From NCBI RefSeq assembly GCF_026229185.1, contig NZ_JAGGJA010000003.1, forward strand, positions 310,001-374,000: a DNA stretch of 64,000 bases. Reading direction: 5' to 3'. Made by a program: the position numbers and the translations under genes. Below the pieces are notes generated by a model. That model worked only from the letters and a program-made list of their open reading frames with translations. It did not search any database and was not told where the DNA came from. This DNA comes from Fodinibius salsisoli (GTDB lineage: Bacteria > Bacteroidota > Rhodothermia > Balneolales > Balneolaceae). Positions 22,529 through 64,000 of this stretch are shown here, piece after piece; the first letter of the stretch is position 1; each line of letters starts with the position of its first letter.

Positions 22529-24250
22529 ATGGAAAATAAGATAAAGGAATACAATATCTCTCAATCCCCGGAACAGTATGATGCTATCGTGGTTGGCTCT
22601 GGCATTTCCGGAGGTTGGGCGGCAAAAGAACTGACTGAAAACGGACTTAAAACGTTGCTTCTTGAACGCGGTCGGGATGTGAAGCATGGAGAAGATTATA
22701 AGACTGAGCATATGCCTCCCTGGGAAGCTGAATTTCGTGGAAGAGGTGACCGCAAGCTGTTTGAAGAAGAGTATCCAATGCAGCTTCGATCTGATGTGAT
22801 CAATGAATATAACTATCACTTCTTTGTTAATGATAAGGAACATCCCTATCAAACGGATGAAGAAGATCCTTTCCTCTGGGTTCGCGGCTATCATGTGGGA
22901 GGGCGTTCGCTTACCTGGGGCCGCCAAACGTATCGGTGGAGCGACCTGGACTTTGAGGCCAACCTAAATGATGATATTGCCGTTGACTGGCCTATCCGAT
23001 ACGAAGATATTGAGCCTTGGTACGACTATGTCGAAAACTTTATCGGCGTAAGCGGTCAGGAAGAAGGCTTAGACCATCTCCCTGACGGGCAGTTTCTCCC
23101 TCCCATGGATATGAATTGCGTAGAGAAAGATGTGCGGGAGAAAATCAAAAATAACTTTGAATACCGGACCATGACCATTGGTCGTTGTGCTGTATTAACC
23201 GAGCCCCATAAAGGGCGGGGTTCTTGCCACTACTGTGGACCTTGTTCCCGAGGATGCAGCGTAGGCGCCTACTTTTCCAGCCAGAGTAGTACCCTGCCAG
23301 CTGCACGAAAAACCGGAAACCTTACGCTCCGGCCCAACAGTATCGTCCATAGTATTATTTACGATAAGGAAACAAATAGAGCTACGGGCGTACGCGTAAT
23401 TGACCGCCTTACCAAAGAAACGAAAGAGTTTTATGCAAATGTAATATTCTTGAATGCCTCCGCCCTTGGCAGCACCCAAATCATGCTCAATTCTACTTCG
23501 GAAGCCTTTCCGAACGGTATCGCCAATTCCAGTGGAGTGTTGGGACACTACCTGATGGATCACCACTTCCGCGTAGGTGCCTCCGGTTCATTTGAAGGGT
23601 ATACAGACCGCTACTACCACGGCAACCGGCCGAACGGTATTTACATACCCCGATTCCGAAATATCAATGAACAGACCATCCAGGATAGCTTTATCCGAGG
23701 TTACGGATTTCAGGGCGGGGCCTCTCGCTCCGGCTGGGGACGTGGAACCAATATGAAAGGTTTCGGTGAAGAATTTAAAAATAAGCTGCGGGATCCCGGG
23801 CAGTGGAATTTCTGGCTGACCGCCTTTGGCGAGATTCTACCCTACGAAGATAATTATGCCGAACTATCAGATAAAACCGATGACTGGGGAATTCCACAGC
23901 TTGAAATTCACGGTTCGATCAAGGATAATGAACACAGTATGCGTAAAGATATGGCAGCCACAGCTGCTGAAATGCTTGAAGCTGCCGGTGCTAAAAACGT
24001 TAGTACCAATGAAAATGAGTATCTGCTGGGTGAGGGCATTCATGAAATGGGTACTGCCCGTATGGGGCGTGATCCTAAAACATCAGTCTTAAATGCTCAT
24101 AACCAAGCTCATGACGTTCCCAATTTATTTGTGACCGACGGTGCCTGCATGACATCCGCAGCCTGTCAAAACCCATCAATTACCTATATGGCGCTGACTG
24201 CCCGGGCTGTTGATTTTGCAGTAGAGGAAATGAAAAAAGGAAATATTTAA
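22529..24250 (+). CDS. GMC-type FAD sugar dehydrogenase with Cys cluster (copy 1)
   Basis: This 573-residue flavoprotein has the FAD-binding GSGISGG (23-29), GGRSLTWG (124-131) and the C-terminal GMC signature HEMGTARMG, ending with ACQNPSITYMAL. A cysteine set CHYCGPCSRGC (Cys233, 236, 239, 243) contains the spacing C-x5-C-x3-C known for the [3Fe-4S] site of FAD-dependent glucose dehydrogenases of the glucoside 3-dehydrogenase group. It has no signal peptide. The next gene encodes the small subunit with a Tat-like signal, so folded co-export is likely. Expected role: periplasmic oxidation of a sugar or glycoside. A cytochrome subunit is not in this window. Confidence 0.9.
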   Translation: MENKIKEYNISQSPEQYDAIVVGSGISGGWAAKELTENGLKTLLLERGRDVKHGEDYKTEHMPPWEAEFRGRGDRKLFEEEYPMQLRSDVINEYNYHFFVNDKEHPYQTDEEDPFLWVRGYHVGGRSLTWGRQTYRWSDLDFEANLNDDIAVDWPIRYEDIEPWYDYVENFIGVSGQEEGLDHLPDGQFLPPMDMNCVEKDVREKIKNNFEYRTMTIGRCAVLTEPHKGRGSCHYCGPCSRGCSVGAYFSSQSSTLPAARKTGNLTLRPNSIVHSIIYDKETNRATGVRVIDRLTKETKEFYANVIFLNASALGSTQIMLNSTSEAFPNGIANSSGVLGHYLMDHHFRVGASGSFEGYTDRYYHGNRPNGIYIPRFRNINEQTIQDSFIRGYGFQGGASRSGWGRGTNMKGFGEEFKNKLRDPGQWNFWLTAFGEILPYEDNYAELSDKTDDWGIPQLEIHGSIKDNEHSMRKDMAATAAEMLEAAGAKNVSTNENEYLLGEGIHEMGTARMGRDPKTSVLNAHNQAHDVPNLFVTDGACMTSAACQNPSITYMALTARAVDFAVEEMKKGNI

Positions 24251-24351: not shown

Positions 24352-24930
24352 ATGGATAGACGAGAAGCAATAAAACAACTGGCATTTTTAAGTGGAGGAG
24401 CTCTTTCACTGACAACCGTAGCCGGTATTATGGGAGGCTGCTCAGCCGAAAGTGGAAGTAGTGGGTTTACTCCACAGACGTTATCTGCTGCGCAAAACAA
24501 ATTAGTAACCGTTTTTTCTGAACGAATTATTCCGGCCACTGATACACCGGGAGCAAAAGCAGCCAAGGTCAATGAGTTTATTGACCATATGCTTACCAAT
24601 TGGAATACCGATCAGGAAAAGGAACACTTTCTGAAAGGTCTTAATCATGTAGAGGAATTTAGTAACAGTGAATTTGGGAGTAATTTTGTAGAGCTTTCGA
24701 AAGATGATCAAATCTCATTGATGGAACAGCTGGAACAAGAAGCAATTGATAATCCCAATCCAGTACCAGGCTCCGACTTAAAACCTTTCTTCTCGATGAT
24801 GAAGGAGTTTACCGTTGTTGGTTATTATACCTCCGAGATTGGAGCTTCTGAAGAGCTCAAGTCAAATCTGGTTCCCGGATACTATGACGCTTGTATGCCC
24901 TATTCGGAGGTTGGGAGGGCTTGGTCGTAA
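24352..24930 (+). CDS. Gluconate 2-dehydrogenase subunit 3 family small subunit (copy 1)
   Basis: This is a 192-residue partner of the preceding GMC flavoprotein. The N-terminus MDRREAIKQLAFLSGGALSL carries a twin-arginine (RR at 3-4) and reaches a lipobox-like MGGC (Cys30), so it is probably a Tat-exported, perhaps lipid-anchored, protein. The rest fits the family: a Leu/Phe-rich helical body with RIIPATDTPGAKAAKVNEFI and EIGASEELKSNLVPGYYDAC. In FAD-glucose and glucoside 3-dehydrogenases this subunit is needed for export and maturation of the signal-less catalytic subunit. It lies 101 bases after the GMC stop. Confidence 0.88.
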   Translation: MDRREAIKQLAFLSGGALSLTTVAGIMGGCSAESGSSGFTPQTLSAAQNKLVTVFSERIIPATDTPGAKAAKVNEFIDHMLTNWNTDQEKEHFLKGLNHVEEFSNSEFGSNFVELSKDDQISLMEQLEQEAIDNPNPVPGSDLKPFFSMMKEFTVVGYYTSEIGASEELKSNLVPGYYDACMPYSEVGRAWS

Positions 24931-42426: not shown

Positions 42427-42431
42427 CTGTT

Positions 42432-47002: not shown

Positions 47003-47137
47003 CGATATCAGTACTTTTTACCGTTGTCTTTATTATTAAGACGAGCGAGAATGGAGGCACCCTGCAATTTTTTCCACATTAATTTGGGTTTACTCAAAAA
47101 ATAGTTGTGAGATATCGAGTATGTCTCCAAAATAATT

Positions 47138-47169
47138 CCAATAGGGCTACCCATCGGTAACCCTATTGG
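47138..47169 (-). terminator. Intrinsic terminator after the GH92 gene
   Basis: CCAATAGGGCTACC (47138-47151) pairs with GGTAACCCTATTGG (47156-47169) with one mismatch and a CATC loop. Read on the minus strand the hairpin is followed by AATTATTTT. It separates the sigma-GH92 transcript from the FecR-SusC-SusD genes. Confidence 0.8.
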
Positions 47170-47278
47170 ATACTAATAGCAAGGACCATCACCTGAAATT
47201 TCAGATAGGTATGAAGCAAAGAATTACGGACAAAAGAATAGTTGAATACGCATAGTTCGAGCCAACAAACAGCATCTA

Positions 47279-49465: not shown

Positions 49466-49477
49466 TAGTTTCTTTAG

Positions 49478-50059: not shown

Positions 50060-50187
50060 TCACTTTTTTAGACATAATGAAAATGATGCTTTCTTAAATA
50101 GCATCTTTTTTCAAAAAAGTAAATTAAATATTCTTACGTATTGTTAATGAAATACTATAAAATTAACTAAGCATATAGCTTAAATAA

Positions 50188-50222
50188 ATCACTCCCGCTT
50201 TAACCAAGCTAGCGGGAGTGAT
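50188..50222 (-). terminator. Terminator after the 3-keto-disaccharide hydrolase-type gene
   Basis: ATCACTCCCGCT (50188-50199) pairs perfectly with AGCGGGAGTGAT (50211-50222). On the minus strand it is followed by TTATTTAAG. It ends the SusC-SusD-GMC transcript and insulates the next sigma gene. Confidence 0.85.
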
Positions 50223-50279
50223 TTAACTTTAGAAAGGTTATTCCACCTCTCGAAGGCAACAATAATATTCAAAATAGCT

Positions 50280-50996
50280 TTATAGCTCTTTAATCTTAAT
50301 GTTACGGAAGCTTACACGGTTGCCGTGATCCTGGATGCCAATATATCCTTCTCGTGCATCTCCGAATTCAGGATGGCTTTGGAATTTACTATTACGAAGC
50401 ATTTCGTACCACTCATTGGTCCAAAGCTCATACTCGACTACCTTTTCTCCATTTTGCCAATGTTCAATAGAAGCACCGTCTGCTACAATCTTAATAGAAT
50501 TCCACTCCCCATAGGGATTGGCATTCTGAGGCTTAACAGGAATCAAATCATAAAGTGATCCCGACTTACGGTTTCCATCCTTCCCTCTTTCGGCATCAGG
50601 ATGGTTTTCATTATCCAACACCTGTACTTCGGGTGCTGACCAGTAGATCGCCTGGGTCGGCTGCTCCATAGCCCGGAAGAAGATTCCGCCATTAGCTCCT
50701 TTCGTAACTTTCCACTCAAGCTTTAGTATAAAGTCTCCATATTTTTTGTCGGTGATGATATCGCCCCCTCCACCATCAGCAAGGACAACAAGGTTTCCAT
50801 CTTCTACCGCCCATCCTTTGTCAGGAAAAGCGTCCTTATTGTAGCCCCGCCAATGATCGGTCGTTTCTCCATCAAAGAGCAGCGCCCAGCCATCATCTTT
50901 TTCTTCTTGTGTAAGCATATTATTCTGTGCTTTAGTTGAACAACTACAGATTGTTAACACTAACATTGTGGAAAATAATATCGATAAGAACTTCAT
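50280..50996 (-). CDS. 3-keto-disaccharide hydrolase family (DUF1080) lipoprotein
   Basis: This is a 238-residue lipoprotein (signal MKFLSILFSTMLVLTICSC, Cys17 or 19) with one concanavalin-like beta-sandwich of the PF06439 type: GWALLFDGETTDHWRGYNKD, WAVEDGNLVVLADGGGGDII, YGDFILKLEWKVTKGANGGI, FFRAMEQPTQAIYWSAPEVQ, LDNENHPDAERGKDGNRKSG, YDLIPV and GEWNSIKIVADGASIEHWQN. Characterised members hydrolyse glycosidic bonds of 3-keto-sugars. It is the last gene of the sigma-controlled unit and lies 35 bases after the dehydrogenase small subunit, which matches an oxidise-then-cleave route. Confidence 0.92.
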   Translation of the reverse strand: MKFLSILFSTMLVLTICSCSTKAQNNMLTQEEKDDGWALLFDGETTDHWRGYNKDAFPDKGWAVEDGNLVVLADGGGGDIITDKKYGDFILKLEWKVTKGANGGIFFRAMEQPTQAIYWSAPEVQVLDNENHPDAERGKDGNRKSGSLYDLIPVKPQNANPYGEWNSIKIVADGASIEHWQNGEKVVEYELWTNEWYEMLRNSKFQSHPEFGDAREGYIGIQDHGNRVSFRNIKIKEL

Positions 50997-51031
50997 GTAT
51001 AAGTATTTAAATAGTAAGAGTTAAAATTATG

Positions 51032-51649
51032 TTAAGCAGAATTTTTTGCCTTGTCTGCCAGTCCAATATGTTCGAGCGCCTCGTGAGAGCAACCTTGCCA
51101 GTCATATGGCTGATTACCCATATAACCAATATCTTCAATACCGATTTGACTGGACCAGAACCCAGAAGCTACTAAATCCCGAAAACTATTAAAAAAAGTA
51201 ACTCCGGGTTGCATTTCGGGTTCAGCTATTTTAGGATACGCAATCTGGTCAAGCATATTCTTTTGCTCCTCTTCGGAGCAGTCAATAAACTTTTTGTCAA
51301 ACTGCTTCTGGCATTGAACATCCAGCCAACTAAGTCCACCACGCATCGGGGTCTGATTTTCCGGTCGATCCAGCATCATAAAATCGATAAACTCTGGAAC
51401 CCCGGCATCTTCGGCATTACCGGAGCGTTCATCAGCCGGAATAATTAAATTAGCCAACTGGCGGACCGTTTCGAACTCGTGATCAGTAAAAAACTGGGTT
51501 TCCCATTTTTCGATATCTTCCTGGGAAACATGTTTCCAGAAGTTGTGCTCCTTCGTTGCTTCTTTCGGGGCCTGCTGACAACCCGTCATCACAAAGCTCG
51601 TTGCCAGTGTACTCAAAGACAGGGTTTTTATCGCTTCTCTTCTATCCAT
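51032..51649 (-). CDS. Gluconate 2-dehydrogenase subunit 3 family small subunit (copy 2)
   Basis: This is a 205-residue partner of the upstream GMC flavoprotein. It begins MDRREAIKTLSLSTLATSFV with twin arginine at 3-4 and lipobox VMTGC (Cys24), so it is probably Tat-exported. The body has LANLIIPADERSGNAEDAGV, PEFIDFMMLD, EEQKNMLDQIAYPKIAEPEM, TFFNSFRDLVASGFWSSQIG and a terminal YDWQGCSHE. It starts 2 bases after a repeat element homologous to the one before copy 1, which encodes an almost identical first eight residues. Confidence 0.9.
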   Translation of the reverse strand: MDRREAIKTLSLSTLATSFVMTGCQQAPKEATKEHNFWKHVSQEDIEKWETQFFTDHEFETVRQLANLIIPADERSGNAEDAGVPEFIDFMMLDRPENQTPMRGGLSWLDVQCQKQFDKKFIDCSEEEQKNMLDQIAYPKIAEPEMQPGVTFFNSFRDLVASGFWSSQIGIEDIGYMGNQPYDWQGCSHEALEHIGLADKAKNSA

Positions 51650-51650
51650 A

Positions 51651-51718
51651 GTGGTTTGAGTCTTGAGTTATGAGTCTTGAGTAATGAAATGATAATAAAG
51701 AACCTCTCATCACTCACG
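51651..51718 (-). repeat. Palindromic ACTCA-rich intergenic element (copy 2)
   Basis: On the minus strand this begins CGTGAGTGATGAG (51718-51706), continues through a CTTTAT segment, and ends in TTACTCAAGACTCATAACTC and AAGACTCAAACC next to the small-subunit ATG. Order, orientation and position match the copy at 24256-24342. Confidence 0.8.
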
Positions 51719-51725
51719 ACTATAA

Positions 51726-53438
51726 TTATAGATTTCCTTTATTCATTTGATCCGTGATATATTCGGAAGTTCGCATCGAGAGTGCCAAAATAGTCCACGT
51801 AATATTTTTGTGAGCCATCGATACAAACGGACCTCCATCAGCAACAAACAAGTTGGGCACATCATGAGCCTGGCAGTGTTTATTCAATACCGACGTGCTG
51901 GGATCGTTCCCCATCCGGGTTGTGCCGCACTCATGGATAATCTCACCCGGATTGGTAATACCGTATCCTTCCTCTTTAGAGGGCATATCCCACATTGCCT
52001 TCCCTCCCATTTCTTCAATAATTCCACGGAAGGTTTCCTGCATGTGCTTAACCTGGTTATACTCTTGGTCGCTCCATTCATAATTAAAGCGTAACACCGG
52101 AATCCCCCATTCATCTACCGTATTGGGATCTATTTCGCAATAATTATCTTCGTACGAAATAGCCTCCCCGCGGCCAGAGAATCCGACCATGGATCCGTAG
52201 TAGCGACGGTAATCTTCTTTTAGCTGTTTGCCATAACCACCGCCTCCTTCAGGACGTTTTTCAAAGACATCGGTATAATTCTGGATGCCGCCCATAAAGC
52301 CATAGCTGGGCATCCCGCGTCCGCCCCAAAGCTCCACATGATAGCCCCGGGCAAAGTCAAGGTCACTATTGTCGCCCCACCAGGGAATATATAGGTGCAT
52401 GCCACCGGTACCGTCCTCATTGTGGGCGGGCATATCCATCATATCGGGTATCAGGCCCATCACGGATGTTCCGGTAGAATCGTTGAGGTACTTCCCGACC
52501 ATGCCGCTGGAGTTCGCCAATCCATTGGGGAAATCCTTCGATTTAGAGTTCAGCAGCAAGCGTGCCGATTCACAGGCACTGGCTGCTAAAATAACGACCC
52601 TGGCTTTTACCTTATATTCCTGTTTGTCTTTTTTGTGGACGTAAGAAACACCAGTTGCCTTACCATCCTCATAAGTAACTTCACGGACCATTGCTCCGGT
52701 TTTAATCTCTAAGTTACCAGTCTCAAGGGCTGGCGGAAGCAATACGGAAGGTGATGAGAAGTTAGAATGTGTAGAGCAACTTCGGTTACACTGCCCGCAG
52801 TAGTGACAAGCGGCACGGTCGTTATGCGGCTCTGTTATAATCGATAACCGGGAAGGGATACACGGAATATCCATATCATCACAAGCATCTTTAATCAAGT
52901 GCTCGTAGCATCGGGGCTCCGGTGGATCCATATAGATGCCCCCTGGTGCATTGGGAATGCCTTCGTTGGTACCAAACAGGCCAATCAGTCGGTCGATGCG
53001 ATCATAATAAGGCTTCACATCCTCGTAATTTATAGGCCAGTCATCGCCATGTCCATCAATACTTTTTCCGTTAAAATCATCCGGACCGAAACGAAGTGAA
53101 ATACGTCCCCAGTGATTGGTCCTTCCTCCCAACATGCGGGCCCGAAACCAATCAAAGTTGCTATCATTTTTCTGGGTATACGGCTCACCTTCAATATCCC
53201 AGCCTCCGAAGCAAGCGTCAAAAGATCCAAATGGCTGAAGGCGAGTCGAAGCTCCCCGTCGTGGCGATTCGTAGGGCCAGGTGAACATGGCAAAATCTTC
53301 AGAATCAAACCAACCACCTGCTTCCAGCATAATTACATCAGCTCCAGCTTTCGTAAGTTCGTGGGCAGCCATTCCGCCACCTGCTCCCGAGCCGACGATA
53401 CAAACATCATATTCTTTAGGACTTTCCTTTATCTGCAT
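51726..53438 (-). CDS. GMC-type FAD sugar dehydrogenase with Cys cluster (copy 2)
   Basis: This 570-residue flavoprotein has the FAD-binding GSGAGGG (16-22), ARMLGGRTNHWGRIS, and the C-terminal HECGTTRMGNDPSTSV, ending with AHKNITWTILAL. The cysteine set CHYCGQCNRSC (Cys211, 214, 217, 221) has the same spacing as copy 1 and fits a [3Fe-4S] site of the glucoside 3-dehydrogenase type. No signal peptide is present; export is expected with the RR-bearing small subunit downstream. It lies directly after a SusC/SusD pair and before a 3-keto-disaccharide hydrolase-family gene. It is only moderately similar to copy 1, so the duplication is old or independent. Confidence 0.92.
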   Translation of the reverse strand: MQIKESPKEYDVCIVGSGAGGGMAAHELTKAGADVIMLEAGGWFDSEDFAMFTWPYESPRRGASTRLQPFGSFDACFGGWDIEGEPYTQKNDSNFDWFRARMLGGRTNHWGRISLRFGPDDFNGKSIDGHGDDWPINYEDVKPYYDRIDRLIGLFGTNEGIPNAPGGIYMDPPEPRCYEHLIKDACDDMDIPCIPSRLSIITEPHNDRAACHYCGQCNRSCSTHSNFSSPSVLLPPALETGNLEIKTGAMVREVTYEDGKATGVSYVHKKDKQEYKVKARVVILAASACESARLLLNSKSKDFPNGLANSSGMVGKYLNDSTGTSVMGLIPDMMDMPAHNEDGTGGMHLYIPWWGDNSDLDFARGYHVELWGGRGMPSYGFMGGIQNYTDVFEKRPEGGGGYGKQLKEDYRRYYGSMVGFSGRGEAISYEDNYCEIDPNTVDEWGIPVLRFNYEWSDQEYNQVKHMQETFRGIIEEMGGKAMWDMPSKEEGYGITNPGEIIHECGTTRMGNDPSTSVLNKHCQAHDVPNLFVADGGPFVSMAHKNITWTILALSMRTSEYITDQMNKGNL

Positions 53439-53753
53439 AAGAAGAGTTGAAACCTATTTTATTGAATATTATAGATGAGCTTTTGAATAAAATAGAATCA
53501 AAAGTATTTACTATCTGTTGACTTTTAATCTTATTCAAAAGCTCAATTTCATTTTACTTTAAATTAAGGCAAAATACAACCTGCCTTGTTTAGGGGTCGT
53601 GGTATTTAACAATTTATAATCTTTAATGATCACAATAGTTGTCTAAAACATATTGAATATAGAGACTCTGCCTTTTACGCTCTTAGCCAGTAAGAAACGG
53701 GTTTTAGGCGGAGCCTCTATATTTCAATTTTATGCTTTTTCCTGGTTAACTAA
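53439..53753. other. SusD-GMC gap with two long inverted repeats
   Basis: There is no gene here. AATATAGAGACTCTGCCT (53656-53673) pairs with AGGCGGAGCCTCTATATT (53706-53723) with one mismatch and one wobble; this lies just after susD on the minus strand. GAGCTTTTGAATAA (53477-53490) is perfectly inverted at TTATTCAAAAGCTC (53531-53544), close to the GMC start. Neither has a strong T-run on the minus strand, so they may be stabilising or attenuating structures. Confidence 0.65.
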
Positions 53754-55331
53754 TTAATTATATCCCGGGTTTTGCTCCAAGGCAGGATTTGTCTGTATTT
53801 CATCATCTGGGATAGGATACAGCAAGTGATATTCTTCATAGGTCTGGCCCCAGTTATTGGAATGACCTATAACATCCTCAAAAATAATTTCGCCTTTGTT
53901 ATCCTCATCCGTCACAGGATATTGCCGGGTTCGTTGAATGTCAGACCATACTTTAAAGTTTAGGGCCAATTCACGAAGTCGCTCCTTCCATACTTCTTCC
54001 ACAAACTCTTGCTCAGAAAGACCATTTAATTCTGCAACAATGGCACTGCGATCTGTTTGCCAATACGCACGGTCCCTTACATCCGCAAGGTATGTAATAG
54101 CTTCCTGTGTTACACCCTCAGAGCGAGCGATAGCTTCGGCTGCAATGAGTAATACTTCAGCATAACGATAAACCCGGATATCTCTTCCTCCCAATCCGGT
54201 TTCAAAAATCGCCTCTTCTTCAAACCAAAGGTAGGGTGCCCACTCTCCGAATTCAAAGGTTTGGCCTTCCCGTTCAATAGAGTTATGGAACAGCTGTTTG
54301 TTTTGAACTCTGAGGTCTACATCCGGATCATATGCCCAGATATACTCCTGGATGGGTCGATAGGCATTTAAGGTACGACCATAATTAATCCCCGGAGGAC
54401 GTATGACCCCTGGAATGGTAATACGAGGGTTATCATTAGATGCTATTTCCGGATTATATTCGATTCCATACACAAACTCAGGATCTACATCCGAGGTACG
54501 AAGTTTATTGTAGGCACTCTCTTCCACCGTTTCACCATGCTCCACAAGAGCGTGCTGTCCGGCTTGGATTACCGATCGGGCAGCATCAGCTGCATCCGCA
54601 TAATGCTCACTTGCCTGCAGTGGATAGCCCGCCATCTGCAAATGCACATCAGCTAACAATGTTCGGGCAGCGCCCTGGGTAATACGATAATTATTCATTG
54701 GAAATGGCTGAGCTCCTAAATTACCCTCATTGATTGCCCAATTAAGATCATTAATGATCTGGGAATAAACCGCATCCGAGCCGGTCCGGGCAACCTCAAT
54801 GTTAGTGAGTCCTTCAATAGGTTCGGTAATAAGAGGAACATCACCAAAAAACTTGACCAGTGAAAAGTAGTTCAGTGCCCGGAAAAACCGTGCTTCTGCC
54901 AGCAGACGCTGCCTCTCATCTTCCGAGAATCCATTCATATCCGGGATGTATTTGATAGCTGTATTGGCACGAGCTATCACGTCATAATGGCCGGACCACC
55001 AGCCATCAAAAAACTGGTTTAATATTTCCGGATCAACCTGTAAGTCTTGAGCTACCTGGCCCTGGATACGCTCTCCCTTGCCTTCGTTATCAAAGAATCC
55101 AGACATGTAGCCTCCCATCATTACATCCGCGCCGCCAAAGCCACCGGAATTGTAAAATCCGGCCCCCTGGCCATCACGATAAAGTCCATTAACCAGTCCA
55201 CTGGCGGCATCCGGGGAACCCAGAAGCTGATCCGTAGATATTTGATCTTTGGGAGATTCCGTTAAAAAATCTTGACACGATGATAACGCAAAGCATCCCA
55301 ATACAACAACAATCAATGCTAATTTTTTCAT
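53754..55331 (-). CDS. SusD/RagB-family lipoprotein (unit a)
   Basis: I start at 55331 (MKKLALIVVVLGCFALSSC), giving 525 residues and lipobox Cys19; four more codons upstream are open. Landmarks are GSPDAASGLVNGLYRDGQGA, AEARFFRALNYFSLVKFFGD, VPLITEPIEGL, AARTLLADVHLQMAGYPLQA, VYRYAEVLLIAAEAIARSEG, WKERLRELALNFKVWSDIQR and QNPGYN. It is the surface binding partner of the preceding SusC. The downstream oxidative genes suggest that its ligand is a disaccharide or glycoside that is oxidised after import. Confidence 0.95.
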   Translation of the reverse strand: MKKLALIVVVLGCFALSSCQDFLTESPKDQISTDQLLGSPDAASGLVNGLYRDGQGAGFYNSGGFGGADVMMGGYMSGFFDNEGKGERIQGQVAQDLQVDPEILNQFFDGWWSGHYDVIARANTAIKYIPDMNGFSEDERQRLLAEARFFRALNYFSLVKFFGDVPLITEPIEGLTNIEVARTGSDAVYSQIINDLNWAINEGNLGAQPFPMNNYRITQGAARTLLADVHLQMAGYPLQASEHYADAADAARSVIQAGQHALVEHGETVEESAYNKLRTSDVDPEFVYGIEYNPEIASNDNPRITIPGVIRPPGINYGRTLNAYRPIQEYIWAYDPDVDLRVQNKQLFHNSIEREGQTFEFGEWAPYLWFEEEAIFETGLGGRDIRVYRYAEVLLIAAEAIARSEGVTQEAITYLADVRDRAYWQTDRSAIVAELNGLSEQEFVEEVWKERLRELALNFKVWSDIQRTRQYPVTDEDNKGEIIFEDVIGHSNNWGQTYEEYHLLYPIPDDEIQTNPALEQNPGYN

Positions 55332-55361
55332 AGTAAAAGTCATTATGGTTTAAATATTCGT

Positions 55362-58300
55362 TTAGAATCGGAGGTTAACACCCAGCGTAAATGTCCGTGG
55401 CTTGGGATATTGGTAGAAGAAAATATTCTGTGAGTTAGGATTCCCGCCCCACGAGGTACCTTCAGGATCATGGCCTTTGAAATCGGGATGGTGAATGACA
55501 AAAGCATTTTCCAGGCTGGCTGTGATTCTTAAGCGCTGCAGTCCCCAGTTCGTAAGAGCCTGCTGGTTGAAGTTATATCCTATTGAAAACAGATTGCCCC
55601 GTATATAGGAGCCATCAACAATCCAGTGGGTATCGGCCTGCGTATTTTGCCCTGAAAGTGGCTGGTGGCGAATACGCTGGATGGGGGTATTTTGGTTATC
55701 CTCTGTCCAGGCCTCATAAAGCTGGGTTGCTATACCGTTGGTTAATGCCTGGCGATCTTCGGCAGTATGTAAGAACTCTTGCATGATTTCACTGCCATAG
55801 ACGAACTGGATATCTGCAGTAAAGTCAAAGTTCTTGAAGTTGAATTTATTAATAAAACTGCCGGTCCATTCTGGCATACCGTAGCCAATAATTTGTCGGT
55901 CAGAAGATCGTTTGGCTTCTCCGGGAATTCGTCCTGCATCAGCAGCCTCTGCGGCTTCATCGGTATTCCAGGTACCCATCCGCTTAAATCCATAGAACGT
56001 ACCGATAGGTTCACCTACGCGGAGGATTGTCTGACTACCAGATACCCAGTTTGGACCTGGAAAAATATCTTCATCTTCTTTACCCAAACTTTCAACTCTG
56101 TTTTTATTATAGTTGAAATTAAGTGTTGAAGACCAGAAGAAGTCGGGCGTTTGGACATTTCGAGTCGTCATGATAAAGTCAACTCCCTGGTTTGATACCG
56201 AGCCAACGTTATCCAGTACAACATCGAAGCCAGTGGTGGAAGGAATTGGACGATCTAACAGTAAGTCATCTGTCTTTTTATAGTAGTAATCAGCCTCAAA
56301 TGACACCACCTGGTTAAAGAGGTCTAACTCCATACCAATATTATACTGTGTGGTCTTTTCCCATTCCAGGTCGGGATTGGCCAATCGCTGAGGAGCGCTT
56401 GAATTTTGGCGCCCTCCACCGAGTAATACCGTACCCGAACCAATAGTAGACAACGACTGATAAACGCCTATTTCGGTATTTCCAGTTCTCCCAACGGAGC
56501 CTCTTACTTTAAGATGATCAATCGCATCTATGTTGGATATAAAGCCTTCGTTTGATGCCGTCCAGCCCACTCCGACAGAAGGGAAAAAGCCATACTTGTT
56601 ATTTTTACCAAATCGGGAAGATCCATCCATTCGGCTGGTCAATGTTACACTATACGTATCATCAAAAGTATAACTACCTCGGGCAAAGAAGGAATTCATG
56701 GTCCAGTCCCAAGAGCCCGATGCCGGAAAACCATCGACTTCGGTAGCTGCATCTATGCTGTTCGTTCGGTAGAAGTCGTTAGGGAAGTTCCGCACGCCTA
56801 CAGCGTTATCTCTATACATTCTCTGCTGCCAACTGGCTCCCAACACAGCATTAATACGATGAGACCCTGTATCTTGTAGGTAGGTCAAGTAGTTTTCGTT
56901 CTGCCAGTAGGTCGTTTCGCTATTCTCAACATAAGCACTCCCTACCGAAGTGGCTGGAGACTCCAGATCAGTTGGCTGATAATTTCGCAATTCATAATTG
57001 GTATTATCAACACCAAACTGTGTTCTGAACTCCAGATTAGGTGTGATTTGCAAGGCAAGGTATGCGTTACCAAAGAGCTGCAGCCGATCGCGTAATCGAT
57101 CTTCTTCGAGTGCTCTTTGAACCGGATTAGGTTGGCCTTCGAGTGTCAAACTTTTAACATCATTGAAATGGCTGTAATCCCCACTCGGCATTCGGACAGG
57201 CAGTATGGGAGCAAATTCTACCATGGTCCTCCGAACTTCCTGGCCGCCTCCACCTTCTTCAATATTGTTTTCCCAGGTTCTGTTGACCCGTAAATTGGTT
57301 CCCAGTGACAGCCATTCTTTGGGGCTGGCATCATAAACAATTTTAGCGCTTGCCCGTCTCATCCATGAATTTAAAATAACGCCTTCGTTATTCGTATAGT
57401 TAAGAAACCCACCAAATGATGATTTCTCCCCTCCGGACTGTACGCCGATCTGATGGTCGTGAGAGAGTGCCGTACGCGATACCTCCTCTTGCCAGTCGGT
57501 ATCATAGAGCGGGTTCCCTGCATCGTCAAAGAGGGTTCCCATATCCGGTGTAATGTCGAGCTGAGGCTCTTCGCCCGGGGCATAGTCATCAAAAAGCGGG
57601 GCATTCTCATAACCGATACGTTGCACTTCCATAAACTCTTCGGCATTCATCGCATCCATCTTGCTGGCCATTTGGCCGACACTGAAAGAACCGTCATAGG
57701 TAACACTCACATCACCAGAAGCGGTATCGCCTCGTTTCGTGGTCACCAAGATGACTCCATTGGCTCCGCGAGAACCATAAATTGCCGTAGCAGAAGCATC
57801 TTTCAAGACCTCCATGCTCTCAATATTATTGGGATTCATATACTCAATACCATCCTGCATCACAACTCCATCCACAACATAGAGTGGCTGGGTGCCTGCA
57901 TTAATAGATCCGGATCCGCGGATGACGACCCGGTTGCTTCCTGTTGGCGAGCCTGAGTTGGTAAAAATATTAACTCCTGCAACTTTGCCTCTCAAGCTTT
58001 TCAACGCATTAAAGGAAGGCTGTTCTTGCAACTCTTCCGCTGAAACCATACCGATAGAACCGGTAACATCTGATTTCTTTTGCACCCCATATCCTGTAAC
58101 TACCAGCTCATCTCCGGAAACGGTTTGGAGCTGCATGGATACATCAATTTGAGAACGACCCTGTATCGGAACTTCCTGCGTTTGGTAACCAATAAATGAG
58201 AATACCAGCGTATCTTGTAATGAAGGAGCATTGAGCTCATACTCACCACTTGCATCCGTGGACGTTCCTGTCGAAGTACCTTTAACAAGTATATTAACGC

Positions 58301-58808
58301 CCGGCAAGGTCTCTCCGGAGCTGGCATCCGTGACAGTTCCGCTAACAGATTCTAACTTCACTTCCTTTTTAGGCATCATCCTCTCCATGAATACCAAATG
58401 ATTGTTGGGAGAAACCGCAAAACGAAGTCCCGTTCCTTCCAATATCTTCCATAGCACCTTATTAACCGTCACATTCTCCAGGCTTAAGCTTATTCGCTTT
58501 TCCATGGGTACCTTCTGATCAATATAAGAAAGCTTAAAACCAGCCTTTTGAGCTACATCCTGTAGCGCATATCGGAGAGTATGGTTATGATAATTGACCG
58601 TCACGACCTGCTTAAGTGTTTCGGAGACGGTGTTTGTTGTTCTGATATCGCTATCATTGAAGACCGATGCTTGTGATATAAAACTTTTTTGCTCTTGTTT
58701 ACTATCAGCTTGAGCATATACAGCACTCACTGCTATAAAAAACATCCAGATATAACAGATAAGGTGCTTCCCTATTCCAAAGATCCTACGTCGTTTCCCT
58801 TTTGTCAT
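55362..58808 (-). CDS. SusC/RagA-family TonB-dependent transporter with STN domain (unit a)
   Basis: This 1148-residue importer has a signal peptide (CYIWMFFIAVSAVYAQ), an STN domain at about 68-142 (TLRYALQDVAQKAGFKLSYI, LEGTGLRFAVSPNNHLVFME), a carboxypeptidase-D-like domain (VSGTVTDASSGETLPGVNIL), TonB-box-like DELVVTGYGVQKK, plug (LRGKVAGVNIFTNSGSPTGS, QPLYVVDGVVMQDG) and barrel ending in RF. The FecR gene is 18 bases upstream. It should import the substrate handled by the GMC dehydrogenase and hydrolase genes downstream. Confidence 0.95.
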   Translation of the reverse strand: MTKGKRRRIFGIGKHLICYIWMFFIAVSAVYAQADSKQEQKSFISQASVFNDSDIRTTNTVSETLKQVVTVNYHNHTLRYALQDVAQKAGFKLSYIDQKVPMEKRISLSLENVTVNKVLWKILEGTGLRFAVSPNNHLVFMERMMPKKEVKLESVSGTVTDASSGETLPGVNILVKGTSTGTSTDASGEYELNAPSLQDTLVFSFIGYQTQEVPIQGRSQIDVSMQLQTVSGDELVVTGYGVQKKSDVTGSIGMVSAEELQEQPSFNALKSLRGKVAGVNIFTNSGSPTGSNRVVIRGSGSINAGTQPLYVVDGVVMQDGIEYMNPNNIESMEVLKDASATAIYGSRGANGVILVTTKRGDTASGDVSVTYDGSFSVGQMASKMDAMNAEEFMEVQRIGYENAPLFDDYAPGEEPQLDITPDMGTLFDDAGNPLYDTDWQEEVSRTALSHDHQIGVQSGGEKSSFGGFLNYTNNEGVILNSWMRRASAKIVYDASPKEWLSLGTNLRVNRTWENNIEEGGGGQEVRRTMVEFAPILPVRMPSGDYSHFNDVKSLTLEGQPNPVQRALEEDRLRDRLQLFGNAYLALQITPNLEFRTQFGVDNTNYELRNYQPTDLESPATSVGSAYVENSETTYWQNENYLTYLQDTGSHRINAVLGASWQQRMYRDNAVGVRNFPNDFYRTNSIDAATEVDGFPASGSWDWTMNSFFARGSYTFDDTYSVTLTSRMDGSSRFGKNNKYGFFPSVGVGWTASNEGFISNIDAIDHLKVRGSVGRTGNTEIGVYQSLSTIGSGTVLLGGGRQNSSAPQRLANPDLEWEKTTQYNIGMELDLFNQVVSFEADYYYKKTDDLLLDRPIPSTTGFDVVLDNVGSVSNQGVDFIMTTRNVQTPDFFWSSTLNFNYNKNRVESLGKEDEDIFPGPNWVSGSQTILRVGEPIGTFYGFKRMGTWNTDEAAEAADAGRIPGEAKRSSDRQIIGYGMPEWTGSFINKFNFKNFDFTADIQFVYGSEIMQEFLHTAEDRQALTNGIATQLYEAWTEDNQNTPIQRIRHQPLSGQNTQADTHWIVDGSYIRGNLFSIGYNFNQQALTNWGLQRLRITASLENAFVIHHPDFKGHDPEGTSWGGNPNSQNIFFYQYPKPRTFTLGVNLRF

Positions 58809-58826
58809 AAGTATTTTGGTTTATGG

Positions 58827-59891
58827 TTAAGTTTGCTTTTTGATTAAGATTATTTTGCGACCTTTTTGTTTGTACTCAGCGTTTAATGAAGCAGCTAATA
58901 TGTTGAGAACTTCCATCATAGGTTCATCATGAAAAGAAGCGGTCATTGTTTGGTCTCTTATTGATACCTCCCCCACAGCAATATCTATATTATACCACCT
59001 TTCTAATCTGCGAATAACCTCTTCAACGGGAGTAGAATTAAAGACTAATCGTCCGTCCTTCCATCCTAAAAATTGTGCAAGTTCTGATATCTCAATTTGC
59101 TTCGCCTCTCCCGACTTAGATAGAAAACCCAATCTATTTTTTGTGATTCTCATACTTTTTTCGCTTGGCATCCTGGACCTCTCCAGAGCCACTTTTCCTT
59201 CTTCCACAACAACTTGTATAGAGGAGTCATCAGGATAGGCCTTGACCCCAAATTTCGTCCCCAACACCTTGGTATAAGAGTCTCCTGAATGTACAATAAA
59301 GGGCTTTTCCTGATCATGAATTACATCGAAATAGGCCTCTCCCTCCAGGTTTATGCGACGCAGAGAGTCTCCAAAAGAGGCTGGTATTTCAACTTTACTG
59401 GCGGCATTTAAATGTATCCTCGTGCCATCAGGAAGCTTGAATAAAGTACGTTGGCCTCGTTCGGTAACAACTACATGTGGTTGTTTATTCTTAGTAAGGC
59501 TTGAGTTCTTGTTTGAAGAATTTTGGGACCCCAAAAAATTATACATGAACAAACCTGTCAAAAGAATTGCTACAGCCACCGCTGTACCTGACAGCCAAGA
59601 GTTACTTTTTCTCTTGCTGTAAGGCTGGGCAACTAACTTAGTAACACCAGAAATAGCGTTCTTATCTTTCGCAGGAGGCTCCTTTTCTGATGAAATTTTA
59701 TCCTGAAAGGAATTCCAGGCTGACTGTGAATCAACATGCATTTCATCTTTAGGAGATATCTCCCAAATTTTTGATAAAGAGTCCAGCAGATACTGGTGTT
59801 CCCTGTCTTCCTGAAGCCATGCATCTACCCGATTTTTTTCCTCGGAAGTGCATTCCCCAGACAAATATTTATGTAATAATTCCCAATCCAT
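58827..59891 (-). CDS. FecR-type anti-sigma factor (unit a)
   Basis: This 354-residue protein begins MDWELLHKYLSGECTSEEKN and has a transmembrane helix at about 99-120 (TAVAVAILLTGLFMYNFLGS). The periplasmic FecR domain (LFKLPDGTRIHLNAASKVEI, LEGEAYFDVIHDQEKPFIVH, TKVLGTKFGVKAY) is followed by a DUF4974-like end (LVFNSTPVEEVIRRLERWYN). It lies between its sigma gene (199 bases) and susC (18 bases). Confidence 0.95.
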   Translation of the reverse strand: MDWELLHKYLSGECTSEEKNRVDAWLQEDREHQYLLDSLSKIWEISPKDEMHVDSQSAWNSFQDKISSEKEPPAKDKNAISGVTKLVAQPYSKRKSNSWLSGTAVAVAILLTGLFMYNFLGSQNSSNKNSSLTKNKQPHVVVTERGQRTLFKLPDGTRIHLNAASKVEIPASFGDSLRRINLEGEAYFDVIHDQEKPFIVHSGDSYTKVLGTKFGVKAYPDDSSIQVVVEEGKVALERSRMPSEKSMRITKNRLGFLSKSGEAKQIEISELAQFLGWKDGRLVFNSTPVEEVIRRLERWYNIDIAVGEVSIRDQTMTASFHDEPMMEVLNILAASLNAEYKQKGRKIILIKKQT

Positions 59892-60090
59892 GGGTCTTGG
59901 ATTATTAAGACTTTTCTACTTCTTTCTATTTGTTATACAACTGAAAAAAGAGGTACCCGGGAATTTTTTTTATTTTTCTTACTATTTGATGAAAGTAAAT
60001 TACAGTAATACCGCAACTCTGTATAACTACATAGTCATCCAGGACCTGAGAAATTGGAATAAATAAATTAGAAAGGAATCGTAAAAAAGA

Positions 60091-60660
60091 TTACGATGCG
60101 GTATGAAGGTCGAAATATTGCGCCAAACGTTCTCTCAGTATTTTAAGTGAGCGACTTATTTGAGACTCAACCGTTCGTTTTGAAATATCAAGGATATCTG
60201 CAATTTCCTGATACGTAAGCCCATCTTTTCTGCTTAACTTATATACATGACGTGCCTTTTCAGGAAGATTGTCAATTTCTTTCTGAACTGCTTTTACAAA
60301 TTTTGAGTCCTCATTATTGAAATCATGTATCTGTGATATGGACGTAGAATTAAGCCAATCTATTTGTTGATTATAGTCTTCTGCTAAATTTTTATGCTTC
60401 AGGTGGTTTAACGCTTTATTCTTGACAGCCTTATAAAGGTATGATTTAATACTTTTTTCAGGGTCTAACGATTCCCTGGATTCCCAAACAGTTAAAAATA
60501 CATCCTGTACTAATTCCTCTGATATATGGGCAGAACGCAAGTATCGCCATGCGAACTTACAAAGAGGGTCGTAAAACCGAAGAAAAAGTTTCTCAAAAGC
60601 CTCTCGATCCCCTTCTCGGATTTTAGATATCCATAATTTAATATCATCCCCCATTGTCAA
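60091..60660 (-). CDS. FecI-type ECF sigma factor (unit a)
   Basis: This 189-residue sigma factor (alternative start two codons later) has region 2 (FEKLFLRFYDPLCKFAWRYL, ELVQDVFLTVWESRESLDPE) and region 4 (LPEKARHVYKLSRKDGLTYQ, EIADILDISKRTVESQISRS). It ends without a hydrophobic tail. It heads the FecR-SusC-SusD-GMC-hydrolase series and is expected to activate it when its SusC senses substrate. Confidence 0.95.
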   Translation of the reverse strand: MTMGDDIKLWISKIREGDREAFEKLFLRFYDPLCKFAWRYLRSAHISEELVQDVFLTVWESRESLDPEKSIKSYLYKAVKNKALNHLKHKNLAEDYNQQIDWLNSTSISQIHDFNNEDSKFVKAVQKEIDNLPEKARHVYKLSRKDGLTYQEIADILDISKRTVESQISRSLKILRERLAQYFDLHTAS

Positions 60661-60882
60661 TATAAAATTTTAAAAGGCTTAAACTTGTATCATTGTTTCA
60701 GACAAAAACTTACAATCATAGCTCATTAAATCTCAAAAGCAGACGGAGCAGAATTTTATATCCAATACCGAATATAGAATCACCTGTCCGTCTACCCTTG
60801 AAAAAATACTTAACACCTTCACTTAATTAATCAATATGAAGGTTGGCTCTTACTTAAATAACTATAACCGCTATAATTATTT

Positions 60883-61818
60883 CTAAGAGACCTGCTGCCC
60901 TACTTTTTCCAGCAGAGACTTGGTTGCCTTTATGCCTTCGAACTCGCTGAGTTCGCTACCTTCATATTCAATGCCGATATGACCGGTATAGCCAGCATCT
61001 TTAACGGTCTGCAGTATTTGAGAATAATCGATCGTTGTTTCCAACCCTTCTTCATTAAAGCCATAGGTCTTAGCACTGACTCCCTTTGCATAGGGCATCA
61101 TCTCTTCAACCCCTTTATAGCGATCATATTCTTCTGCACAACCATTTTCACTTCGCTCAATGCAAAAATTTCCAAAATCTGGCAATGTACCGCAATTTTC
61201 CATATCCACTTGTTGCATAACACCGGCAAGCCAAGAACCATTAGAAGAATATCCACCGTGGTTTTCAACGATTATATTGATTCCATAATCTTTGGCAAAG
61301 GTCGCGAGACTACCTAATCCATCAACAGCGGCCGTTTTTTGATCTTCGGGCGAACCGTCTCCACGAGCATTGACCCGAATAGAGTGACAACCTAAATGTT
61401 CGGCAGCTTCAACCCATTTGTAATGATTCTCGACCGATGTTTTACGTTCCTCCTCATCAGAAGCAGCCAGGGCCCCTTCTCCGTCAATCATAATCAGAAC
61501 CTGTTGTACGCCTAAATCATCGCATCGGGTATTCAGTTCATCCAGATAGCCTTTATCGTTAGCCTTATCTTTAAAAAACTGATTTACATACTCTACGGCC
61601 GTGATTCCAAATTCATTTTTAGCTGTTGCCGGAAATTCTAAATTGCTGAACTGGCCATCAAAAAGGGATTTGTGCAAACTCCATTCGGCCAGAGAAATAT
61701 CAAAGAAAAGCTCGCTGCCGGTATCCGCTTTTGAACTGCATGCCGTTATTAAACCGGGTACCGCTGCTGATGCTACGGCTATCCCCCCCATTTGTAGAAA
61801 CTGTTTTCTATCCATCAC
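60883..61818 (-). CDS. Sugar phosphate isomerase/epimerase-like TIM-barrel lipoprotein
   Basis: This 311-residue protein has an N-terminal signal (MMDRKQFLQMGGIAVASAAV, then GLITAC with Cys27). It has Arg-Lys rather than Arg-Arg, so Tat export is less certain than for the dehydrogenase subunits. The xylose-isomerase-like barrel shows FFDISLAEWSLHKSLFDGQF, GITAVEYVNQFF, HLGCHSIRVNARGDG, INIIVENHGGYSSNGSWLAG and GYTGHIGIEYEGSELSEFEG, with the metal-ligand Glu/His positions retained. Such periplasmic members are common with 3-keto-sugar enzymes. It lies 222 bases upstream of the unit-a sigma gene on the same strand. Confidence 0.88.
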   Translation of the reverse strand: MMDRKQFLQMGGIAVASAAVPGLITACSSKADTGSELFFDISLAEWSLHKSLFDGQFSNLEFPATAKNEFGITAVEYVNQFFKDKANDKGYLDELNTRCDDLGVQQVLIMIDGEGALAASDEEERKTSVENHYKWVEAAEHLGCHSIRVNARGDGSPEDQKTAAVDGLGSLATFAKDYGINIIVENHGGYSSNGSWLAGVMQQVDMENCGTLPDFGNFCIERSENGCAEEYDRYKGVEEMMPYAKGVSAKTYGFNEEGLETTIDYSQILQTVKDAGYTGHIGIEYEGSELSEFEGIKATKSLLEKVGQQVS

Positions 61819-62104: not shown

Positions 62105-63358
62105 ATGAACAGATTACTACAGACGAAATTAAGCCTCATGATGTTCCTGGAATTTTTCATCTGGGGGGCATGGTATTCAACAGTTGCGGTTTATATGACG
62201 GCCAACGGCATGGAAAACCTAACCCACTGGCCTTTTATGGTAAACCCTATTGCGGCTATAGTAGCTCCTTTTTTCGTCGGCCTTATAGCTGATCGTTATT
62301 TCCCAACGGAGAAAGTGTTAGGCACCCTTCATCTTTTAGGGGCTTTATTTATGGTTTTAACTCCCATGGCCGTTAGCTCACCCGTTGTCTTTATTCTCCT
62401 TCTGCTGGCCTATAATCTCTGCTATATGCCAACTATGAGCCTGGCTAATACTCTTTCATTTCACCACATTAATGATCAGGAAAAAGACTTTCCTGTCATC
62501 CGTGTATTTGGAACTATTGGATGGATTGTTGCCGGACTTATCATCAGTTTTGTGCTTGGCTATTTTGTTAGCAGCAGTATTAAGCCCGAAGAAACGGCTC
62601 TTCCTTTATATCTGACAGCAGCAGCCAGCCTTCTGCTTGGGCTTTACAGTTTTACGCTGCCCCATACCCCTCCCCCTGCAGCTGGAGAAAAAGTTTCGTT
62701 TCGCAGCATAGCTGGTATCGATGCTCTTAAACAACTTGGCAGTAAGTCCTTTTACGTATTTTTATTTAGCTCCTTTTTAATCTGTATTCCCCTGGCGGCT
62801 TACTATAATTTTACCCAAATCTTCTTAAACAACGCTAATTTTGATAACATCGCCGCTACCCTCACGATCGGACAAATGTCGGAGGCCCTTTTTATGGTCC
62901 TCATTCCTCTCATGTTTGTACGCTTAGGGGTAAAATGGATGTTAGCAGCAGGTATGCTTGCGTGGATTCTACGGTATGTTTTCTTTGCATTTGGTGCCCC
63001 TGAACCTACTACCTGGATGATCATTACAGGGATTGCCCTGCACGGTATCTGCTATGACTTTTTCTTCGTTACCGGTCAAATTTATGTAGATAAAAAAGCC
63101 CCCGCTAATATTCGAGGGCAAGCACAAGGACTGATTGTTCTTATAACTTATGGCGTTGGGATGTTTATTGGAGCCCGTGTCGCAGGTCGGGTATTTAATA
63201 GTTTCTTAGGTGACGCCGCTGCTCTTAACTTATCTCAGTGGCAAGATTTCTGGTGGATACCAGCCATCTTCGCAGCCTGTGTACTGCTCTTTTTTATCTT
63301 ATTCTTTAATGATCAGGTTATCGATAAAGATGCAACAGCTGAAGACATCTCTGTTTAA
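62105..63358 (+). CDS. MFS nucleoside:H+ symporter-like permease
   Basis: This 417-residue inner-membrane protein has about 12 helices. It matches the nucleoside permease (NupG/XapB-like) branch by its start (KLSLMMFLEFFIWGAWYSTV, AVYMTANGM), PIAAIVAPFFVGLIADRYFP, YMPTMSLANTLSFHHI, FPVIRVFGTIGWIVAGLIIS and HGICYDFFFVTGQIYVDKKA. In Bacteroidota such genes often sit among Gfo/Idh, isomerase and DUF1080 genes and may carry keto-sugars rather than nucleosides; that is inference. It is followed by a terminator. Confidence 0.92.
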   Translation: MNRLLQTKLSLMMFLEFFIWGAWYSTVAVYMTANGMENLTHWPFMVNPIAAIVAPFFVGLIADRYFPTEKVLGTLHLLGALFMVLTPMAVSSPVVFILLLLAYNLCYMPTMSLANTLSFHHINDQEKDFPVIRVFGTIGWIVAGLIISFVLGYFVSSSIKPEETALPLYLTAAASLLLGLYSFTLPHTPPPAAGEKVSFRSIAGIDALKQLGSKSFYVFLFSSFLICIPLAAYYNFTQIFLNNANFDNIAATLTIGQMSEALFMVLIPLMFVRLGVKWMLAAGMLAWILRYVFFAFGAPEPTTWMIITGIALHGICYDFFFVTGQIYVDKKAPANIRGQAQGLIVLITYGVGMFIGARVAGRVFNSFLGDAAALNLSQWQDFWWIPAIFAACVLLFFILFFNDQVIDKDATAEDISV

Positions 63359-63534: not shown

Positions 63535-64000
63535 ATGTTTTTCCGCATAAATCGTTTTTTCCCTTCCCTTGTTAAGGATACCACATTGACCTTCTCATTT
63601 ATTTTTTCTTTTTGTCTTATCATGGTTGGATGCAATCCCCATCCTGAACCTGAAGTTATCTCGCTCTCGGAAAAAGAATCCTCTGAAAATGCTATACAGA
63701 TCCAAAATGAAACTTCTGTTCAACTTGCCGAAGGGTTGGATATCAACCTCTGGGCCTCAGAAAAGCTACTGGCCGACCCTATTGGTCTGGATATAACTAA
63801 TCAAGGCGAAGCGTATGTGTCCGTCACAAATAGGCGTAGTAGTTCTAAACCCGATATTCGCTCGCATCCCAATTGGGAACATGAATCCATAAGCTGGAAG
63901 AATGTAGAAGATCGAGTATCTTTTTTAGAGAAGGAATTAGCACCCGAACACAGCAATAAAAATAGCTCTTGGTTGCAAGACCTTAACGCCGATAGCTCAT
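63535..64000 (+). CDS. Membrane-bound dehydrogenase/heme-domain-type lipoprotein (partial, C-terminus off the right edge)
   Basis: An ATG at 63535 opens a frame running off the window, 155 codons. It has a signal peptide with lipobox LIMVGC (Cys33). VQLAEGLDINLWASEKLLAD and PIGLDITNQGEAYVSVTNRR follow, which match the start of the beta-propeller of PVC-type secreted dehydrogenases (TIGR02604-like), whose later parts often contain a HEAT region and a c-type heme site. Those parts are beyond the edge. If heme is present, this protein could accept electrons from the GMC enzymes, but that is speculation. Confidence 0.8.
   Translation, partial: MFFRINRFFPSLVKDTTLTFSFIFSFCLIMVGCNPHPEPEVISLSEKESSENAIQIQNETSVQLAEGLDINLWASEKLLADPIGLDITNQGEAYVSVTNRRSSSKPDIRSHPNWEHESISWKNVEDRVSFLEKELAPEHSNKNSSWLQDLNADSS

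Follow-up and report, generated by a model that had tools for sequence, protein, structure and literature searches.

Oxidation-first cleavage of glycosides is a recognised, under-explored route. In Caulobacter, one report describes LacABC as required, and a nearby protein of family PF06439 (3-keto-disaccharide hydrolase, also DUF1080) as important, for lactose use; it also places LacA/DUF1080 gene neighbourhoods in Indibacter, Algoriphagus and Halomonas and the dehydrogenase in Pedobacter (PMC9007349). For the Bacteroides genes BT2157 and BT2158, a second report gives no growth defect on raffinose-family sugars upon deletion of either one (PMC11501099). Here we describe a related locus in Fodinibius salsisoli, located in a 64,000-nucleotide stretch of contig NZ_JAGGJA010000003.1 (positions 310,001 to 374,000; hereafter the window, whose own numbering is used throughout). 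Between positions 50280 and 61818, a cassette encoding an extracytoplasmic function (ECF) sigma factor, a FecR-type anti-sigma factor and a SusC/SusD pair (SusCD) lies inside a set of putative glycoside-oxidation genes. The explanation that we favour, with about even confidence, is that within one branch of the genus this cassette entered a conserved envelope module for 3-keto-glycosides, which it would now feed.

All eight genes lie on the minus strand, and Pfam and NCBIfam recover the content, order and families that an initial annotation of the same DNA had proposed. The row begins with a xylose-isomerase-like TIM-barrel protein (60883..61818; PF01261, 3e-25), with a start that resembles a twin-arginine translocation (Tat) signal (RK) and a lipobox, lipoprotein and Tat signals being assigned by eye throughout. 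A spacer containing a strong hairpin (60661..60882) forms the upstream border of the cassette, which comprises the ECF sigma factor (60091..60660; TIGR02985 Sig70_bacteroi1 in NCBIfam, sigma-70 regions 2 and 4 in Pfam), the anti-sigma factor (58827..59891; Pfam FecR and FecR_C), a SusC/RagA TonB-dependent receptor (55362..58808; TonB barrel, plug and CarbopepD_reg_2) and a SusD-family lipoprotein (53754..55343; Pfam SusD_RagB and SusD-like_3). The downstream border is a second spacer with two strong hairpins (53439..53753), followed by a GMC flavoprotein (51726..53438; Pfam GMC_oxred_N/C), a PF13618 small subunit with a twin-Arg start and a lipobox (51032..51649; Gluconate_2-dh3, 1.3e-32) and a PF06439 lipoprotein (50280..50996; 3keto-disac_hyd, 6.6e-53). 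In this order the intergenic gaps measure 222, 199, 18, 18, 315, 76 and 35 bp. The row combines the adjacent SusC and SusD homologues of a polysaccharide utilisation locus (18-bp gap) with the adjacent GMC protein and PF13618 subunit of a LacABC-type system. The receptor had been annotated as an STN-SusC; its SusC identity is firm (NCBIfam SusC/RagA, 3e-244), and its STN domain is visible yet under the Pfam cut-off (20.7 versus 28.4 bits). The unit had also been described as free of classical glycosidases, which is true of the eight genes, where Pfam finds no glycosidase or other carbohydrate-active enzyme of a classical family; a sigma factor and GH92 (glycoside hydrolase family 92) pair, belonging to the next unit, also reads on the minus strand and starts 220 bp downstream.

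The enzyme genes flanking the cassette are linked in close relatives. A search of 12 same-genus genomes, the window's own included, gave a GMC match in 10 (all at least 82% identical) and none in the remaining 2, and in 10/10 genomes with this GMC the PF06439, TIM-barrel and PF13618 genes lie within ~10 kb of it (for G011, L196 shows the TIM barrel). The same four genes are linked in the same-family loci L052, L053, L054 and L065, where the gap between the TIM-barrel and GMC genes shrinks to 11 bp (L052), 4 bp (L053) or an overlap of one shared base (L065), and Gfo/Idh/MocA and major facilitator superfamily (MFS) genes often stand near the same-genus and same-family modules. This linkage supports the view that the enzyme half is a conserved module of the 3-keto-glycoside type. 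The cassette, in turn, separates the TIM-barrel and GMC genes in 3/10 same-genus genomes, namely the window, G001 and G011, the last with two extra genes between sigma factor and TIM barrel. These three carriers cluster in the GMC tree (support 87), a grouping consistent with one insertion. The tree (125 rows, calculated with a quick method and midpoint-rooted for drawing only) splits with a support of 100 into a clade A of 111 rows, which holds the window GMC, and a clade B of 14 rows, which holds the other two GMC proteins of the genome; window GMC and clade B are ~30-38% identical.

The window GMC can be aligned with B. cepacia glucose dehydrogenase (BcGDH, alpha subunit; 6a2u, 2.9e-47) and has a GxGxxG motif; in this alignment C211, C217 and C221 fall on three cysteines of 6a2u that we take to be the ligands of its 3Fe-4S cluster. 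These residues, as well as H502 and N545, are invariant in 37/37 aligned rows; as judged from the alignment, the protein is of the 3Fe-4S sugar-dehydrogenase type. Its predicted model (pLDDT 82.6, pTM 0.88) finds the best fold matches in fructose dehydrogenase (FDH) and BcGDH (TM 0.77-0.85), followed by members of a glycoside 3-oxidase/pyranose oxidase group. When only the C-terminal part is compared, 7qf8 leads (42.1 bits) by a narrow margin over FDH (40.6) and BcGDH (33.9); this entry, annotated as a GMC oxidoreductase and also as a pyranose 2-oxidase from Pseudoarthrobacter, is presumably PsG3Ox. In that enzyme H440 and N484 are catalytic (PMC10646112). The C-terminal resemblance to 7qf8 hints at C3 oxidation by the window enzyme, and from family and context together we infer that such 3-oxidation would take place in the periplasm. 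The initial annotation had proposed a set for periplasmic 3-oxidation and cleavage of glycosides: the conserved linkage and the 3Fe-4S-type GMC uphold it as a module, and the 3-oxidation itself would follow from the family and setting of the enzyme.

The small subunit had been called Tat-type, in agreement with a twin Arg at positions 3-4 in 29/29 aligned rows. Since the GMC protein shows no signal peptide by eye and its partner carries this motif, the flavoprotein is probably exported as a hitch-hiker on the small subunit. By sequence, the latter has no PDB match at E <= 0.001 (best 0.031); its predicted model (pLDDT 79.5) returned nothing at E <= 0.001 in Foldseek and only Z <= 3.9 in VIA-align, and we therefore withhold any structural claim for it.

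Beyond the family, we scanned named genomes, for which all counts refer to the best 80 loci (44/80 with full flanks, 36/80 with cut flanks). The small subunit accompanies the GMC in 78/80, SusC occurs in 14/80 and a match to either of two MFS queries in 6/80. PF06439 is adjacent on the same strand in 4/80 (L073, L122, L128 and L134), compared with a crude expectation of 0.5/80 (14 copies per ~4200 genes, the gene number being assumed, and two slots) that is to be read with the related loci not being independent. In Flaviramulus L122 and Seonamhaeicola L128, one strand carries in succession a TIM barrel of the window type (57% identical in L122 and 52% in L128; ~3.5 kb upstream of the GMC gene), an MFS transporter, a Gfo/Idh protein, a second TIM barrel (67% identical to a Pseudoalteromonas query and adjacent to the GMC), the GMC, PF13618 and PF06439. 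In Pseudoalteromonas L067 the order is Gfo/Idh (48% identical to that of the window), isomerase, MFS, PF06439, GMC, PF13618 and isomerase, although the window's own TIM barrel and MFS protein match neither these isomerases nor this MFS at E 1e-6. GMC, PF13618 and PF06439 are thus neighbouring genes in two Flavobacteriaceae as well as in Pseudoalteromonas.

The organisation of the spacers bears on how the genes are expressed. The initial annotation closed the unit with a terminator, and a hairpin is indeed present 3' of the PF06439 gene (50185..50225, minus strand; 15-bp stem, 11-base loop), in a stretch that folds better than 200/200 shuffles (z = -4.44); its T-run is weak, and a consensus terminator scan, which covers loops of 3-8 only, did not pick it up. 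By the same scan the region is not enriched in terminator-like sites (9 against an expected 10.7), and a sigma-70 promoter scan was uninformative (35 versus 29.1). Both cassette borders fold strongly (z = -8.45 for the SusD-GMC spacer and -4.86 for the TIM barrel-sigma spacer), and the corresponding spacers of relatives do so more weakly (L049 for both and L048 for SusD-GMC only; z -2.93, -2.65 and -2.60). The hairpins of this locus have no clear T-tract and are terminator-like at best. Because they flank the sigma-to-SusD block, a single co-transcribed unit is doubtful; considering also the 315-bp SusD-GMC gap, one eight-gene operon was not adopted, and the original description of the uptake genes as "wired" to the enzymes, and as co-induced with them, is at best tentative.

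In the scheme that we favour, a glycoside would be bound by SusD/SusC, and the STN domain would signal via FecR to the ECF sigma factor, raising expression of the receptor and perhaps of the enzymes too. The glycoside would then enter the periplasm, where the GMC protein, exported there by the twin-arginine small subunit, would use FAD and a 3Fe-4S cluster to oxidise the sugar ring at C3 and would hand the electrons on to a haem protein. Cleavage of the 3-keto-glycoside bond by elimination/hydration would fall to the PF06439 lipoprotein, perhaps assisted by the TIM-barrel protein. An MFS transporter would then import the keto-sugar and a Gfo/Idh/MocA enzyme would reduce it. The PF06439 match is strong and complete (180 bits versus a cut-off of 26.8; model positions 1-187 of 187), and a solved relative, 8rr2 (202 bits), is a 3-keto-disaccharide hydrolase domain-containing protein by name only. 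The closest solved chain to the TIM-barrel protein is 4ovx; DgpC/CarC-type lyases match it weakly (9m3b, E 8.5e-07), with Glu, Asp and Glu aligned, residues that, together with the DgpC-type His, are presumably metal ligands.

Candidates for the remaining steps are encoded nearby. A divergent MFS gene of the nucleoside-H+-symporter type (62105..63358, plus strand) adjoins the module in several relatives, both from the genus and from the family, and a Gfo/Idh/MocA oxidoreductase lies in an outlying part of the same island (21183..22346, minus strand). At 63535..64000 (plus strand) begins the gene for a 1143-residue PVC-type haem (CxxCH) lipoprotein that runs past the window (L009:3536-6967); it combines DUF7133 and HEAT repeats with a PVC-type haem domain at the C-terminus, and a second PF06439 gene follows. 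In G001, G006 and G011, too, this haem protein neighbours the module, and it is a possible electron acceptor for the GMC pair.

A SusD search of 345 genomes, with 7.9 to 20 kb examined around each SusCD, returned relatives at 40-79% identity in 10 other genomes; G001 and G011 were not among the matches. A PF06439 protein lies directly downstream on the same strand in 3/10 (G006, G038 and G069), with an additional PA14 domain in G006 and G069 and a contig end cutting it in G038, and in G029 a PF06439 gene is ~5 kb away. Clade A GMC occurs in 1/10, G400, together with its small subunit and GH92, an arrangement also found in Anditalea L130. Other partners are GH38 and a UxuA-type protein (G051) or glucoamylase-like PF10091 genes (G329), and in G046, G332 and G397, of which part of the genes was scanned, no query family other than sigma, FecR, SusC and SusD was found. 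As judged from these neighbourhoods, the SusCD type recurs with oxidation-type genes and also with alpha-mannosidases, and the earlier proposal of an uptake system "dedicated" to oxidation is therefore in doubt, the more so as most same-genus modules do without the cassette. A broader version, in which a self-regulated SusCD type recurrent by PF06439 or GMC genes across Bacteroidota would form an "oxidative" polysaccharide utilisation locus dedicated to glycosides 3-oxidised in the periplasm, we regard as possible but somewhat doubtful. At L186:5420-9275 and L190:4704-8759, PF06439 proteins (with PA14) come directly after a SusCD related to that of the window and before a haem or plastocyanin-like protein; this order may represent a second arrangement for oxidative uptake.

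Several observations weigh against a 3-keto-glycoside module fed by an invading cassette. The cassette is missing from 7/10 same-genus modules, and hairpins stand at both its borders, with the weaker folds noted above for L049 (both spacers) and L048 (SusD-GMC). The closest solved dehydrogenases oxidise glucose at C1 or fructose at C5; the TIM barrel has Ser at the His position of DgpC-type lyases; and the unit has no LacB-like small cytochrome, the nearest haem protein being PVC-type and in a divergent operon. PF06439 appears in the fetched flanks of only 8/80 best named GMC relatives, and in 9/19 clade A loci from further relatives, 10/19 being without it. A TIM-barrel homologue (any of four queries) occurs in 18/80, adjacent and on the same strand in 12, and the window's own TIM barrel matches only 2/80 (L122 and L128). 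In Pedobacter, 0/10 DUF1080 genes had a lactose phenotype, perhaps because of redundancy, and the dehydrogenase had one (PMC9007349). The link between clade A and PF06439 is thus real in some branches, Pseudoalteromonas included, and is not general. That of the TIM barrel is weakened outside the genus and family, which leaves the standing of the favoured explanation unaffected, because it rests on GMC, PF13618 and PF06439.

Two alternatives draw on the same evidence. The sigma-FecR-SusC-SusD block may be an independent transporter for another glycan, for instance an alpha-mannoside, that landed here without a functional link; the hairpins at its borders and its presence in 3/10 same-genus modules would fit, as would related SusCD by GH92 (L130, L192) or GH38/UxuA (L191) and the GH92 and GH76 units adjacent within the window. 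Since in G006, G038 and G069 PF06439 proteins come immediately after related SusCD, since L192 and L130 pair such a SusCD with a GMC of this clade, and since the eight genes contain no glycoside hydrolase, we consider this rather unlikely. It seems improbable, and more so than an unrelated transporter, that the GMC pair serves respiratory energy by dehydrogenating aldoses or alcohols (at C1 or another position), with PF06439 as an ordinary endo-glucanase-like hydrolase, given that PF06439 adjoins in the window's branch, two Flavobacteriaceae and Pseudoalteromonas and that 8rr2 bears the name that it does. In favour of such a different oxidation are the glucose and fructose dehydrogenases as closest solved GMC relatives, the 72/80 best named clade A loci without PF06439 in their fetched flanks, and three Pedobacter species (L117, L123 and L147) whose ~60% identical GMC belongs to clade A and forms a lone pair with PF13618 that adjoins what by eye look like ribosomal protein and rpoA genes, with no CxxCH protein within the range examined. 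One PF06439 member, moreover, is reported to be an endo-xanthanase (PMC10881899, PMC9007349). Were the cassette functionally tied to the enzymes, as in the explanation that we favour, such loci would escape searches keyed on classical glycosidases, and the transporter ligand would point to the natural substrates of the pathway. Its presence and absence in one genus constitute a natural experiment, in which the enzyme module occurs both alone and together with an importer of its own.

The genome holds three GMC/PF13618 pairs and 14 PF06439 stretches. A second GMC dehydrogenase in the window (22529..24250, plus strand), of clade B and probably LacA-like, precedes its PF13618 partner (24352..24930, plus strand) in the outlying part of the island, and has relatives 50-60% identical in Proteobacteria and Hymenobacter. 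The clade A GMC was not adopted as a LacA orthologue: clade B is probably the LacA clade, and the second protein is the better candidate because a Halomonas plasmid locus that unites a clade B-like GMC (frame broken in the record) with PF13618, PF06439, MFS, TIM barrels and Gfo/Idh agrees with the LacA/DUF1080 neighbourhoods described in PMC9007349. In G006, a 15.7-kb island combines Gfo/Idh, a second GMC-PF13618 pair, a relative (60%) of the window GHL10 gene, PF06439-PF13618-GMC-TIM barrel and a divergent MFS-PVC haem protein-PF06439 group; its neighbours are ABC and TPR genes that share 73% and 66% identity with their counterparts at 9922-11361 of the window. In the window, an island of this type is dispersed over 21-68 kb (its end past the window) by other uptake units and the sigma-SusCD cassette. 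One such unit (28003-38331, minus strand), with GHL10, a NamZ exo-beta-N-acetylmuramidase, SusD, SusC, FecR and sigma, is likely devoted to N-acetylmuramic acid (MurNAc)/peptidoglycan uptake. Another (38669-50059; GH76, an F5/8-type-C domain protein, SusD, SusC, FecR, GH92 and sigma) is a likely alpha-mannan unit, in which 85 bases (42432-42516) are shared between the open frames of SusC and SusD. At L009:9636-17059, two similar ~1130-residue lipoprotein-like proteins with the look of FG-GAP/VCBS repeats, with a short lipoprotein-like gene between them (by eye), adjoin SusD- and SusC-like genes.

Compared with LacABC, whose LacA and LacC we take to be of the GMC and PF13618 types, the locus, whose enzyme half is of this LacABC and DUF1080 kind, shares the GMC protein, the PF13618-type subunit, the PF06439 protein, epimerase-, reductase- and transporter-like neighbours and a probable periplasmic location. 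It differs in that LacABC has a cytochrome c subunit, LacB, whereas the window unit is without a small c-type cytochrome; its GMC is of clade A, outside clade B, where LacA-like proteins appear to fall; and its module carries the inserted ECF sigma/FecR/SusCD cassette. In Bacteroides, the BT2156-BT2160 cluster is not known to include SusCD, and BT2158 is of the Gfo/Idh type rather than GMC. The likeness is that BT2158 oxidises disaccharides at C3 in the periplasm, as proposed here for the GMC protein, and that BT2157 belongs to PF06439 (PMC11300592, PMC11501099, PMC9007349). With the gamma-alpha complex of BcGDH (6a2u) and Gluconobacter FDH (8jej), the GMC protein shares fold and cysteine positions. 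In both of these enzymes a small partner subunit leads export; that of the window differs in being PF13618, without a PDB match at E <= 0.001. SusC/SusD with sigma and FecR recall a polysaccharide utilisation locus, from which the eight genes differ in having no classical glycoside hydrolase or lyase.

The locus is not alone in having a SusCD next to such a module: plasmid NZ_CP095062 of Hymenobacter volaticus (L151) has SusC-SusD near GMC-PF13618-nucleoside permease-Gfo/Idh-isomerases-cytochrome c-PF06439, with MFS and Gfo/Idh proteins 46% and 50% identical to those of the window. The differences are a clade B GMC, a distant SusD (26% over 190 residues) and intervening GH65 and thioredoxin-family genes, in a stretch that starts inside SusC and leaves the sigma/FecR side outside it. 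A literature search of titles and abstract openings, with many journals beyond its range, found no description of a sigma/SusCD cassette joined to GMC/PF13618/PF06439. The chemistry is known and the genetic arrangement new, its new element being the ECF sigma/FecR/SusCD cassette inside the module.

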